This document shows, one piece after another, positions 5,100-20,748 of a DNA stretch of 64,000 bases. The notes beneath the pieces were generated by a model. That model saw nothing but the letters and a program-made list of their open reading frames with translations. It made no database searches and was not told where the DNA came from. How positions within the stretch are numbered: position 1 is the stretch's first letter; the number at the start of each line of letters is the position of its first letter. This DNA comes from Lachnospiraceae bacterium. Its GTDB lineage: Bacteria > Bacillota > Clostridia > Lachnospirales > Lachnospiraceae. Made by a program: the position numbers and the translations under genes. The stretch lies in NCBI GenBank assembly GCA_017392525.1, contig JAFOVD010000053.1:43929-107928 (forward strand), written 5' to 3'.

Positions 5100-5789
5100 T
5101 TATAAATCATAACCGGTTTCCATCTGTCGAGAGATGGCGATTTCAAGGTTACAATTTCTACATCTCAGTTCATCAATCATTTTTTTCTCCTGAGAATCGT
5201 CTTTTAGTTCAATATTGTAACTAAGTTTGAATAGACTTCCCATGTTTGTGGTTTTTACATCCAAAAGGGAATGGGAGAGTGTGTATTTTTCAAATAAATC
5301 ATCAAATTGATCTGTGTAGTTTAAGTCTTCCGGAATTGTGATTTTTAGCAGCTTTACGGAAGATTTTGTCTCGCCGAAGTTAGAGAGGTTTAATACAGCA
5401 AATACGCATCCTAAAATCATGGCGAATAAAACTGCCAGTGTTAAATATCCCATTCCGGAGATAAGTCCGGTTGCCATGGCAAGAAAGATAATGGAGATTT
5501 CTTTGGCAGTACCCGGTGCAGAACGGAATCGTACCAGAGAGAAGGCACCTGCAACAGCGATACCTGCTCCAATATTACCATTTACCATCATGATTACAAC
5601 AGCAACGATTGCCGGTAAGGTAAAGAGTGTAATCAGGAAACTTTTTGTTGTGCGATTTCTATACGAGTATGTCGCTGCCAGAAATGCGCCGATCAGCAGG
5701 GATATGCATAGAACCATCAAAAACTTTTGAACGGAAATCGTTGTTGTAGTTGCGGAATCGAAGATCCCCTGAAATAAGGTTGAGAGCAT
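5100..5789 (-). CDS. DUF4956 membrane protein
   Basis: A 229-residue protein with four predicted membrane helices in the first 130 residues and a soluble C-terminal domain. The segment AGAFSLVRFRSAPGTAKEIS between helices is the conserved core of DUF4956. Such genes very often follow a VTC-domain polyphosphate polymerase gene, as here, and probably act with it at the membrane; the exact role is unknown. The start at 5789 is supported by AGAGGAGGA eight bases upstream, even though it lies 131 bases inside the end of the upstream gene. Confidence 0.85.
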   Translation of the reverse strand: MLSTLFQGIFDSATTTTISVQKFLMVLCISLLIGAFLAATYSYRNRTTKSFLITLFTLPAIVAVVIMMVNGNIGAGIAVAGAFSLVRFRSAPGTAKEISIIFLAMATGLISGMGYLTLAVLFAMILGCVFAVLNLSNFGETKSSVKLLKITIPEDLNYTDQFDDLFEKYTLSHSLLDVKTTNMGSLFKLSYNIELKDDSQEKKMIDELRCRNCNLEIAISRQMETGYDL

Positions 5790-6498
5790 AATTGTTTTCC
5801 TCCTCTAATGCTTCTTTTAATATGGTTTTATATGCCATACCATATTTTGAAAATGAAGTTTTATAAAGTTTTTCTTCAGATAATATTTGAACAAACCACA
5901 GTGGGATGGCTCCTCCGGCCTTTACTTCCATGAGAACCTGTCCCGGTTTAAGTAATGGTTCGCCACCGATATAAGATGTTAGATTTACATCGGTATTTCG
6001 CCATAGAATATTTTGATCAAAAGTAATACGGAATTCATGATCATCTATGGCGTAGTAAGCTTCACGATCATAGGATAGAAGCACCCGTGGAATAAGGGTT
6101 TCATAACGCTTCTTTGTATAGTCAATCTCAGCCTCAATCTGGTTGTTTAGAACCTTTTGATGGTTGAGTAGATAACTCATAGCATCACTCTCTGTCATAC
6201 GTATACGACGTTTATAGACAACGCCTTTAAATTTCTTTTTCAGTTCAATGAAAACCATGGTATCACAATCGGCAAGTCCATAACTTCTAATACGGAGTTT
6301 TTCTTTGTAGAGCGGCTTATCCAGCGAACGACGGATAAGTAAGAAATCAGGAGTATCAAAGTATAGACTGAGATTTGTGTTTCGCCCGTGCTCATCTGCA
6401 CGCATATGTTCGGACATCTTCTGAAGTACAGATACGTATTGTTCTTGTGAGAGCATGTATTTGATTTCGTATCTTTTGAAAATCATTTGATCTGCCAT
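5659..6498 (-). CDS. VTC-domain polyphosphate polymerase-like protein
   Basis: A 279-residue protein that is almost entirely a VTC domain. Lysine- and arginine-rich beta strands line a tunnel in this fold: YEIKYMLS near the start, LRIRSYG, FIELKKKFKGVVYKRR, and the acidic LMEVKAGG that binds metal. In eukaryotes this domain makes polyphosphate from ATP, and bacterial members are assigned the same activity by homology. The ATG at 6498 is preferred over 6504 because GGAG sits seven bases upstream. The last 43 or so residues overlap the DUF4956 gene in another frame, unusually long for a coupled pair. It has its own predicted promoter region after the histidine kinase terminator. Confidence 0.85.
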   Translation of the reverse strand: MADQMIFKRYEIKYMLSQEQYVSVLQKMSEHMRADEHGRNTNLSLYFDTPDFLLIRRSLDKPLYKEKLRIRSYGLADCDTMVFIELKKKFKGVVYKRRIRMTESDAMSYLLNHQKVLNNQIEAEIDYTKKRYETLIPRVLLSYDREAYYAIDDHEFRITFDQNILWRNTDVNLTSYIGGEPLLKPGQVLMEVKAGGAIPLWFVQILSEEKLYKTSFSKYGMAYKTILKEALEEENNYALNLISGDLRFRNYNNDFRSKVFDGSMHIPADRRISGSDILV

Positions 6499-18439: not shown

Positions 18440-19291
18440 ATGGATCCAATTACAAAGAAACTCAATGTAGATCATCTGATTCAGTTGGCATTGCAGGAAG
18501 ATATTTCAAGTGAAGACGTAACAACAAATGCAGTGATGCCGGATGCTAAACCTGGTGAAGTAGAACTGCTCTGTAAAGAGGATGGTATTATCGCCGGATT
18601 AGAGATTTTTGAACGAGTATTTAAGTTGTTAGATGAAAATACAGAAGTAACATTTTTTGCAAAAGACGGCGACGAAGTAAAGGTTGGTCAAAAACTTGCT
18701 GTTGTTCGCGGAGATATCCGTGTGCTTCTTTCCGGTGAGAGAACAGCACTGAACTATCTTCAGCGCATGAGTGGTATTGCAACATATACACATTCTGTAG
18801 CAGAGCTTCTTAAGGGAAGCAAGACAAGACTTCTGGATACACGTAAGACAACACCTAATATGCGAATCTTCGAAAAGTATGCAGTTCGTATCGGTGGTGG
18901 TTACAATCATCGCTATAACTTGTCTGATGGTGTACTTTTAAAGGATAACCATATCGGTGCAGCAGGTGGTGTGAAAGAGGCTGTAAAGATGGCTCAGGAT
19001 TATGCACCATTTGTTCGTAAAATAGAAGTTGAAGTAGAAAACCTTGATATGGTTCGCGAGGCTGTAGAAGCCGGTGCAGATATCATCATGCTTGACAATA
19101 TGAGCCATGACATGATGAAAGAAGCAATTGAAATCATTGACGGACGTGCTAAGACAGAGTGTTCTGGAAATGTTACCAAGGAAAATATCAAGAATATCGT
19201 AGATCTTGGTGTAGACTTTGTATCCTCCGGTGCGTTGACACATTCTGCTCCAATTCTTGATGTATCATTAAAAAATTTACATGCAATCTAA
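18440..19291 (+). CDS. nadC: Nicotinate-nucleotide pyrophosphorylase (carboxylating)
   Basis: A 283-residue type II phosphoribosyltransferase that joins quinolinate to PRPP with loss of CO2, giving nicotinate mononucleotide. Diagnostic segments: ERTALNYLQRMSGIAT, LLDTRKTTPNMR, GGGYNHRYNLSDG, LLKDNHI and the C-terminal VDFVSSGALTHSA. Last gene of nadABC, 12 bases after nadB, and followed by a terminator. Confidence 0.97.
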   Translation: MDPITKKLNVDHLIQLALQEDISSEDVTTNAVMPDAKPGEVELLCKEDGIIAGLEIFERVFKLLDENTEVTFFAKDGDEVKVGQKLAVVRGDIRVLLSGERTALNYLQRMSGIATYTHSVAELLKGSKTRLLDTRKTTPNMRIFEKYAVRIGGGYNHRYNLSDGVLLKDNHIGAAGGVKEAVKMAQDYAPFVRKIEVEVENLDMVREAVEAGADIIMLDNMSHDMMKEAIEIIDGRAKTECSGNVTKENIKNIVDLGVDFVSSGALTHSAPILDVSLKNLHAI

Positions 19292-19298
19292 AAATAGT

Positions 19299-19333
19299 CC
19301 TCGGCAGTTAAACTGCCGGGGCTTTTTCTTTTT
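19299..19333 (+). terminator. Terminator of nadABC
   Basis: A 9-base GC-rich stem (19299-19307 with 19313-19321) with a TTAAA loop is followed by CTTTTTCTTTTT. Confidence 0.9.
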
Positions 19334-19383
19334 CGCACTTTATCCATCGCCCCGTCCAATAACATGCGTTTTTGCAGGCCTGT
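19334..19383. other. Flank of the foldback element with a copied segment
   Basis: The segment 19334-19353 (CGCACTTTAT, four bases, CGCCCC) reappears in the same orientation inside the right arm at 19605-19621 (CGCACTTTAT, one base, CGCCCC). It may be a remnant of another copy or of the insertion event. No clear target-site duplication is seen at the element ends. The remaining 19684-19776 holds only the leader of the transporter operon. Confidence 0.4.
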
Positions 19384-19683
19384 ACAGTATTTCCAAAGGG
19401 CGGTAATACTTTTAAGGTCAGGGACTATAAGGATTATCCAATACTTGAAGGCTCAAATACCGTTTGTTAAGTAAAATCAGAAAAACTGCGTCTTATGTAT
19501 CGTCATCGTAGTATATTCGACGTCCTGTCTCAGATACTACTTGCGCCGCCCTCCATGGCGGCGCATGACGATACATATGGGCGCAGTTTTTGGATTTTAC
19601 TAAACGCACTTTATTCGCCCCAAGTATTGGATAACCCTTATAGTCCTTTTGCAATTATTATTACCGCCCTTTGGAAATACTGT
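19384..19683. repeat. 300-base foldback (inverted-repeat) element with two inner hairpins
   Basis: Two arms of about 120 bases are near-perfect reverse complements. 19384-19408 pairs with 19659-19683 (25 of 25). 19422-19447 pairs with 19621-19646 (25 of 26). 19471-19490 pairs with 19582-19600 (one small bulge). 19495-19506 pairs with 19565-19576 (12 of 12). Less regular bases lie between these blocks. The centre holds two hairpins: GTAGTAT/ATACTAC (19508-19514 with 19534-19540) and GCGCCGCC/GGCGGCGC (19543-19550 with 19557-19564, loop CTCCAT), so the fold is a long stem capped by a three-way junction. No protein is encoded. It may be a MITE-like mobile remnant or a structured RNA; I cannot tell which. 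Confidence 0.8.
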
Positions 19684-19776
19684 GCGAAAATACTTGTATA
19701 CTTCAACTCGCCAATGTGTTATAGTGTGTACATGTTTTAATTAGAAAAGGGAAGAAAAGAAAAAGGAGGACACAAC

Positions 19777-20748
19777 ATGAAAAAAAGATTAATAGCTGCT
19801 TTGGCAGCGGCGACACTTGTTATCACAAGTTTTGCTGCATGTGGTTCGAGTTCGGATTCGACAACATATAAGGTTGGTGTAATTCAGCTGGTTCAGCATG
19901 AAGCGTTGGATGCAGCAACAGAAGGATTTGAGGATGCACTCAAGGATAAGCTTGGAAAGAATGTTGAAATCGAGGTTCAGAATGCGGCTGGAGATTCTGC
20001 AACATGTGCAACTATTGCCAATACATTTGCATCGCAGAATGTGGATTTGATTATGGCAAATGCAACTGCATCTTTACAGGCAGCTGTGGCAGCTACAGGT
20101 ACGATTCCAATTCTTGGAACATCAGTAACGGATTATGCAACAGCTTTAGAGATGACGGACTGGGATGGAAAGACCGGAATTAATGTCAGTGGTACATCAG
20201 ATCTGGCACCTCTTGATCAGCAGGCAGATATGTTAGAAGAGTTATTCCCGGCAGATTCTTATGGCAAGGTTGGAATTCTCTACTGTACAGCAGAACCAAA
20301 TTCAAAATATCAGGCAGATAATATTTCAAAGTATCTTGAGGAAAAGGGATATACAGTTTCTGAGTATACATTTTCTGATTCAAATGATATTGCATCTGTA
20401 ACCCAGACAGCATGCGATGGTTCAGATGTCTTATACATTCCGACAGATAATACAGCGGCATCTTGTACAGAGACTATCCGTTCTGTAGCGTTGGCCGCAG
20501 CTAAACCTATTGTATGTGGAGAAGCCGGTATCTGTAAGGGATGTGGTGTAGCAACACTGTCAATCGACTATTACCAGTTGGGTTACAAGACTGGTGAGAT
20601 GGCATATGAAGTATTGGTAAATGGTGCAGATCCTGCCGATATGGAAGTTGAAACTGCTGAGACAGTAACAAAGCAGTACAACAAGACAATCTGCGAACAG
20701 CTCGGAATTACAATTCCGGCAGACTATGAAGCATTGGAAGAAGAGTAA
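19777..20748 (+). CDS. ABC transporter substrate-binding lipoprotein (TrpX-like)
   Basis: A 323-residue lipoprotein. The signal peptide ends in a lipobox with the acylated cysteine at residue 22 (SFAAC), followed by a Gly/Ser linker. The mature part is an ABC_sub_bind domain (PF04392 type) with two Rossmann-like lobes, as in the TrpX proteins of the tryptophan/tyrosine importers. GGAGG lies just before the start. The three-gene order (binding protein, permease, ATPase) supports an importer. The substrate is not certain: aromatic amino acids are the usual inference, but nothing here proves it. Confidence 0.85.
   Translation: MKKRLIAALAAATLVITSFAACGSSSDSTTYKVGVIQLVQHEALDAATEGFEDALKDKLGKNVEIEVQNAAGDSATCATIANTFASQNVDLIMANATASLQAAVAATGTIPILGTSVTDYATALEMTDWDGKTGINVSGTSDLAPLDQQADMLEELFPADSYGKVGILYCTAEPNSKYQADNISKYLEEKGYTVSEYTFSDSNDIASVTQTACDGSDVLYIPTDNTAASCTETIRSVALAAAKPIVCGEAGICKGCGVATLSIDYYQLGYKTGEMAYEVLVNGADPADMEVETAETVTKQYNKTICEQLGITIPADYEALEEE

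Follow-up and report, generated by a model that had tools for sequence, protein, structure and literature searches.

Bacterial MITEs and intergenic palindromes such as the Correia/NEMIS and REP/BIME repeats are short, non-coding, multi-copy, intergenic and palindromic, and REP systems need a Y1 transposase. The elements described here resemble them in all of these general traits but have a conserved centre and arms that vary between genomes, and the dependence of REP systems on a Y1 transposase has no counterpart in them.

Another known system close to the elements is the RNA family TwoAYGGAY (Rfam RF01731), proposed in 2010 and entered in the table of that survey as a probable RNA with probably no cis-regulatory role, with human gut, gamma-Proteobacteria and Clostridiales as its taxa (PMC2864571, Weinberg et al. 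2010); two covarying pairs were added to it in Rfam 15 (PMC11701678). The one functional guess in print among these sources dates from December 2014, when its loops were reported to match the CsrA-binding motif and CsrA-binding sRNAs were proposed for Clostridia, a proposal not validated in that paper (PMC4333381). The parallel proposed there is with the CsrB/CsrC/RsmX-Z sRNAs, which like the present elements carry GGA in hairpin loops, in pairs, in CsrA-bearing genomes (PMC4333381); the present elements differ in having two sites per unit, many dispersed copies and long, variable arms. As reported for CsrA SELEX, ACA and GGA were invariant and GU nearly so, and the selected hairpins mostly had six-base loops with AC pairing with GU, mostly with four or fewer pairs (PMC7652899). 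In Bacillus subtilis, a Firmicute, the known CsrA antagonist given in the same source is the protein FliW (PMC7652899).

The window, the whole stretch of 64,000 nucleotides analysed here, comes from a draft Lachnospiraceae genome (G000; 1.99 Mb, 79% complete). An earlier note on it had described a 300-base foldback between nadC and a TrpX-type gene, an observation that is confirmed, while its first interpretation is partly supported. The foldback (19384–19683, no strand assigned) is real, as judged by its arm blocks and a fold z score of −19.9, and lies between nadC (18440–19291, plus strand; TIGR00078, 345.2 bits, cut-off 198.4) and a gene for a TrpX-like ABC substrate-binding protein (19777–20748, plus strand; best model NF041285 ABC_SBP_TrpX, 233.8 bits, below the cut-off of 390). 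Its arms of 123 and 119 nt are complementary in four blocks, as had been claimed: 19384–19408 with 19659–19683 at the outside (25/25), 19422–19447 with 19621–19646 (26 nt, 96%), 19456–19484 with 19587–19615 (29 nt, 76%) and 19494–19506 with 19565–19577 (13/13). The last of these is the closing helix of the tip (19494–19577, minus strand), where the fold bears out the two enclosed hairpins and the three-way junction that they form at the end of the stem. Folded as one strand of 300 nt, the element has a minimum free energy (MFE) of −162.3 kcal/mol against a mean of −66.6 (s.d. 4.8) for 200 shuffles, none of which was as stable. The absence of an encoded protein also holds, the single ORF of at least 80 aa that overlaps the element (81 aa, 19495–19740) being judged spurious. 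Upstream, a terminator-like hairpin with a T tract stands behind nadC (19299–19331, plus strand), followed by a left flank (19334–19383) with the partial right-arm copy that had been noticed, CGCACTTTAT at 19334–19343 and CGCCCC at 19348–19353, and a weakly arm-like stretch; positions 19347–19388 show a weak likeness to arms from elsewhere in the family (six chosen subjects; 72% over 43 columns, E 0.002).

The element had been called one of unknown nature, a description that no longer applies: its core (19455–19616, minus strand) matches RF01731 over model positions 1–168 with 79.3 bits against a gathering cut-off of 43. The core thus spans the whole model, with two tip hairpins, AYGGAY-type loops and a family that counts Clostridiales among its 2010 taxa (PMC2864571). 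The differences are that the model has 168 positions, whereas the elements here go on into arms that reach 323 nt, and that they behave as a dispersed repeat. A match to RF04209 (MIR7533; 42.4 bits, cut-off 230) was attributed to chance, the query being a long hairpin. The window element adds a member, shaped as a dispersed foldback repeat, to an RNA family already described.

Read on the minus strand, which is the AYGGAY strand, tip hairpin 1 (19542–19565) has a C–G-closed, CsrA-like hexaloop of the AYGGAY type, AUGGAG, and tip hairpin 2 with its stem (19508–19540) has the five-base loop AGGAC, assigned by eye. Neither is a perfect AYGGAY, the first ending in G and the second being shortened; GGA is kept in both. 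The copy is antisense to nadC and to the TrpX-like gene, and a simple scan from 19250 to 19800 found no sigma-70-like promoter where 1.6 were expected in shuffles, so its AYGGAY strand may not be transcribed and the copy, antisense to both neighbours and behind a terminator, may be silent.

Across the family, the three-helix tip covaries strongly and carries mostly GGA loops on one strand, and the long arms vary in sequence and length. The covariation check on homologues that the earlier note had suggested gave a strong result in the tip: in an alignment of 60 distinct copies, also analysed by RNAalifold, 91.8% of cells are paired and the score is 0.834, against 0.175 for shuffled and 0.09–0.18 for slid alignments. 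Cells with double changes number 378 (shuffled mean 108) and one-sided changes 4, with double changes in 17 of 18 tip pairs, and the C–G pair that closes loop 1 is invariant (60/60). With the reservation that copies were found with a model containing GGA loops, so that loop counts arise partly by construction, GGA is present in loop 1 of 53/60 tips, in loop 2 of 46/60, in both in 43/60, in at least one in 56/60 and in neither in 4/60, and a CsrA-type C[ANGGAN]G hexaloop closed by at least three pairs occurs at least once in 53/60 tips and twice in 15 (68 in total), with 0 on the reverse strand and 0.12 in shuffles. Seven of the 60 tips have no such hexaloop, the window tip has one, and in 20/60 the loop is preceded by AC and followed by GU, as the strict SELEX form requires. 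Tip hairpin 1 of the window has about 8–9 pairs, longer than the SELEX norm, and the SELEX pair numbers suggest that CsrA may disfavour very stable stems (PMC7652899).

The balance of G–T to A–C mismatches in the tip is 9:3 (p 0.15) in a register chosen without favouring either, and 12:1 and 33:90 under other alignment registers; the three counts disagree because the register differs, and 9:3, too small to establish an RNA, is the count relied on, that of 33:90 including gap artefacts in the rows of one genome (G045) and columns outside the conserved helix. G–U pairs are scarce in the tip (9 of 1,299 cells, against 26 of 389 tRNA pairs in a rough control whose program may bracket only standard pairs).

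RNA selection on the long arms would be expected to leave G–U in excess of A–C on the RNA strand. In 61 copies read on the AYGGAY strand, the arm mismatches comprise 112 G–T and 140 A–C: the outer arms hold 3,307 Watson–Crick, 87 G–T, 105 A–C and 293 other cells, the inner stems 1,680, 25, 35 and 284, respectively. The arms of G045 (31 of 36 candidate copies, 89 consensus pairs) show 99 G–T, 120 A–C and 256 other mismatches, and 133 double changes against 45 when shuffled (maximum 58), the shuffle leaving the relatedness of copies in. RNA selection on the long stems is accordingly unsupported, G–T and A–C being about equal and without strand bias. The arms stay complementary beyond chance, without strand preference; since their mismatches have no strand bias, the complementarity looks DNA-made.

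DNA template switching is reported to create and mend hairpins (Monttinen and Loytynoja 2022, PMC8794818) and would be the simplest mechanism for the arms. The hairpins described in that paper are alike in their multi-base compensatory changes and in perfect stems that come from one event; they differ in that the paper deals with RNA genes, whereas the arms here belong to a dispersed repeat and are linked to the process by inference. The arms form a natural data set of long palindromes kept complementary with few G–U intermediates. As for the earlier proposals, a large structured RNA is right in part, the tip being the core, with strong covariation, of a described RNA family; a double-stranded RNA precursor is unsupported, given arm mismatches with no G–U preference and the lack of a promoter near the window copy in the simple scan.

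Copies at other loci, which had been suggested as a search, were found both in the own genome and in genomes of the family. Its members occur in multiple copies, lie between genes in either orientation and have a patchy distribution over related genomes. The own genome has at least 8 copies (7 by the RF01731 covariance model and 1 by blastn), and the 300 bases first reported are not the full size in the family: three own-genome copies are foldbacks of 602, 619 and 706 bases, with arms of 269–323 bases. Two copies, L027 and L030, share 92% identity over the central 473 bases, yet their outermost 74–118 bases, although self-complementary, are mutually dissimilar (E 1e-4). A congener (G003) has 20 RF01731 matches; carriers make up at least 16 of 116 relatives and, at E 0.001, at least 65 of 397 family genomes (63 over the cut-off), with 58 of 334 genera represented. 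In G045 a version of about 294 bases occupies at least 40 places (with 40 of 120 candidates scored), and some carriers have from 20 to at least 40 copies. Carrier and copy counts are lower bounds, with at most 21 candidates scored per genome in the 116-genome set, 6 in the 397-genome set and 40 in G045, and with stricter search filters for sets of more than 40 genomes.

Outer arms differ across the copies of G000 and G003, which have no conserved terminal inverted repeats, unlike those within G045, where most of 21 aligned copies end alike, in approximately GATTAGGGTGTCAAAACATG and its reverse complement. The gaps that hold 68 classified copies are tandem in 37 cases, convergent in 22 and divergent in 9, counts that carry no genome-wide baseline. 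Orientation in tandem gaps shows no significant bias (22 sense, 15 antisense, p 0.32) in a test that dropped 31 of 99 copies for a neighbour missing on one side. Some copies begin directly behind stop codons. A phage, plasmid or viral origin was set aside: blastn in ‘distant’ mode with 19422–19646 gave no match in phage and plasmid collections, and one exact tip pattern had 0 hits in viral_contigs, though diverged tips would be missed by such searches.

Some contigs end in an element or a few hundred bases from one (L028, L032 and G045 loci such as L088, L089 and L093), so draft assemblies probably undercount copies. Among 60 fetched non-window hits, 12 neighbouring pairs lie within 2 kb of each other (G001:C78, G002:C68, G011:C33, G011:C47, G025:C2, G040:C123 and G003:C1, the last with four pairs); 10 are divergent (minus then plus), 0 convergent and 2 in the same direction. 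The members of the L063 pair are inverted and 98.6% identical over 296 bases. At L029, positions 2282–2471 form a palindrome of element arms, seemingly without a core; a complete copy lies about 1.2 kb away. TTGACA reads outwards at both conserved ends of G045 copies (for example L092, 1952–2245) and could serve as a −35 box for flanking genes.

The MITE-like reading of the earlier note stands as far as the elements are dispersed, non-coding and multi-copy, and many dispersed copies without coding capacity are indeed seen; flanking direct repeats exceed chance in a minority of copies. We compared flanks for 91 of 99 copies, the window copy included, 8 being dropped as near contig ends or having too short a palindrome, against 300 permutations. 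Flanking direct repeats of at least 5 nt were present at 19 of 91 copies against 13.5 expected (reached by 16/300 permutations), of at least 6 nt at 10 against 4.0 (2/300), of at least 7 nt at 6 against 1.26 (1/300) and of at least 8 nt at 2 against 0.48 (20/300). The excess is weaker at 5 and 8 nt than at 6 and 7 nt, and most of the 91 copies, including that in the window, have no target duplication. In a simpler end test in G045, on 25 flank pairs with two places double-counted, the longest word shared averaged 4.88, against 4.23 under permutation; the 91-copy test, from which duplicates were removed, superseded it.

Presence differs between G000 and G003 at two of three places compared by eye. 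The gap between an ABC gene and ftsH holds a copy in G003 and none in the window, again by eye, and a further G003 copy, at the 3′ end of a gene, is missing from the G000 orthologue, whose neighbour on the other side is also not the same. The nadC site is occupied in both genomes, by copies that point in opposite directions and have dissimilar outer arms. The Y1 transposase (PF01797) occurs in 65 of the 116 genomes (8 of 16 carriers and 57 of 100 others) and shows no association with the element; it has no match in G003 (99% complete) or in the 79% complete draft of G000. Mobilisation of the IS200/605 or REP type was rejected as a requirement on these counts, and a search restricted to the Y1 transposase found no mobilising enzyme.

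The elements show two CsrB-type traits, several GGA motifs in hairpin loops and CsrA in the same genome. Among the 397 genomes, CsrA (PF02599) was detected in 62 of 65 carriers and 148 of 332 others (Fisher p 4e-16, phylogeny ignored), and in the 116-genome set in 15 of 16 carriers and 60 of 100 others (p 0.01); the own genome has one CsrA. The corresponding figures for FliW (PF02623) in the 397 genomes are 60 of 65 and 145 of 332 (p 3e-14). As CsrA is nearly inseparable from FliW, a link with motile lineages would yield the same table, and motility is a confounder. Three carriers have no CsrA hit (G215, G365 and G404, the last with at least 6 copies in a draft 91% complete). Five genomes have a CsrA hit without FliW; G026 (60% complete) and G190 (98% complete) are the carriers among them, and in two others of the five, G006 and G039, the CsrA hit is below the cut-off. 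The co-occurrence supports the hypothesis of CsrA binding put forward in PMC4333381, without proving it, and together with the SELEX-like loops makes that guess directly testable in culturable relatives. With weak hits counted, 14 of 30 genomes with at least two CsrA hits are carriers (p 0.03 among CsrA-positive genomes), and G395 has 6 CsrA hits.

We assign a probability of roughly 0.55 to the reading that these are dispersed MITE-like foldbacks around an RF01731 core, with DNA-maintained arms and a putative CsrA-binding tip able to titrate CsrA. Copies would spread as a MITE does, non-autonomously; the complementarity of the arms would arise and persist at the DNA level, with template switching or arm-to-arm correction during replication as the likeliest route. 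Where a copy is transcribed in the right sense, its tip would bind CsrA through the AYGGAY loops, and the CsrA-binding hairpins scattered over a many-copy genome could then together titrate CsrA. If the repeat does titrate CsrA, CsrA-controlled functions would scale with its copy number. More tentatively, in Clostridia that have CsrA and FliW a mobile-like repeat may have turned into a genome-wide store of CsrA-binding hairpins, its size set by copy number: a CsrA sponge outside Gammaproteobacteria, built from dispersed foldbacks whose arms are continually rewritten by DNA template switching and whose tip alone is under RNA-level selection; we regard this wider claim as speculative.

Dispersal, the direct repeats at a minority of copies and the strand-neutral arm mismatches would also fit a plain MITE or foldback repeat, with a tip recognised as single-stranded DNA by a transposase or recombinase and CsrA irrelevant, as would the lack of a fixed orientation to genes and the very few G–U pairs in the tip (9/1,299 cells). 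Such a repeat would leave aside the conserved loop, which resembles the CsrA SELEX topology, and the strong co-occurrence of csrA, and the Y1 transposases, a hairpin-recognising class, are unmatched in 8 of 16 carriers, G000 and G003 included; we think this account rather doubtful. The loops and the co-occurrence, along with tip covariation, the enrichment of carriers among genomes with two or more CsrA hits (14/30, p 0.03) and the published proposal (PMC4333381), point instead to trans-acting, CsrA-sequestering sRNA genes of the CsrB kind, each under selection and spread by ordinary duplication rather than transposition. Set against such genes are the scan without a promoter near the window copy, the free orientation, arms without RNA strand bias, the at least 40 copies in G045 and the truncated or arm-only copies, and they too seem a somewhat improbable explanation.

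A giant bidirectional terminator or mRNA-end stabiliser between genes would suit the 37 tandem, 22 convergent and 9 divergent gaps among 68 copies, to the extent that counts lacking a genome-wide baseline can tell, and the copies that start right behind stop codons; it is unlikely, with conserved GGA loops that would be superfluous, a terminator-like hairpin that already precedes the window copy and convergent gaps that may simply tolerate insertions. A chance or decaying palindrome without relatives, which the earlier note had tied to finding no homologue in any genome and no transcript, has a negligible probability: it is refuted by homologues, RF01731 copies being present in many genomes, and also has against it the z score of −19.9 and the RF01731 match of the window copy itself.

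Other repeats were seen in G003. A separate one, some 480 bases long, is rich in TTCTGTAA/TTACAGAA, has no convincing ORF and occurs in about a dozen places (for example L070 818–1315, L063 2395–2867 and L062 1959–2503), mostly at 89–95% and in a few cases at 74–78% identity, often beside a TwoAYGGAY element and also elsewhere. Between the ABC gene and ftsH at L067, a 154-base repeat is present twice (5260–5413 and 5932–6085, 97% identical), with many CCTCCACCATG-like units lying between the two.
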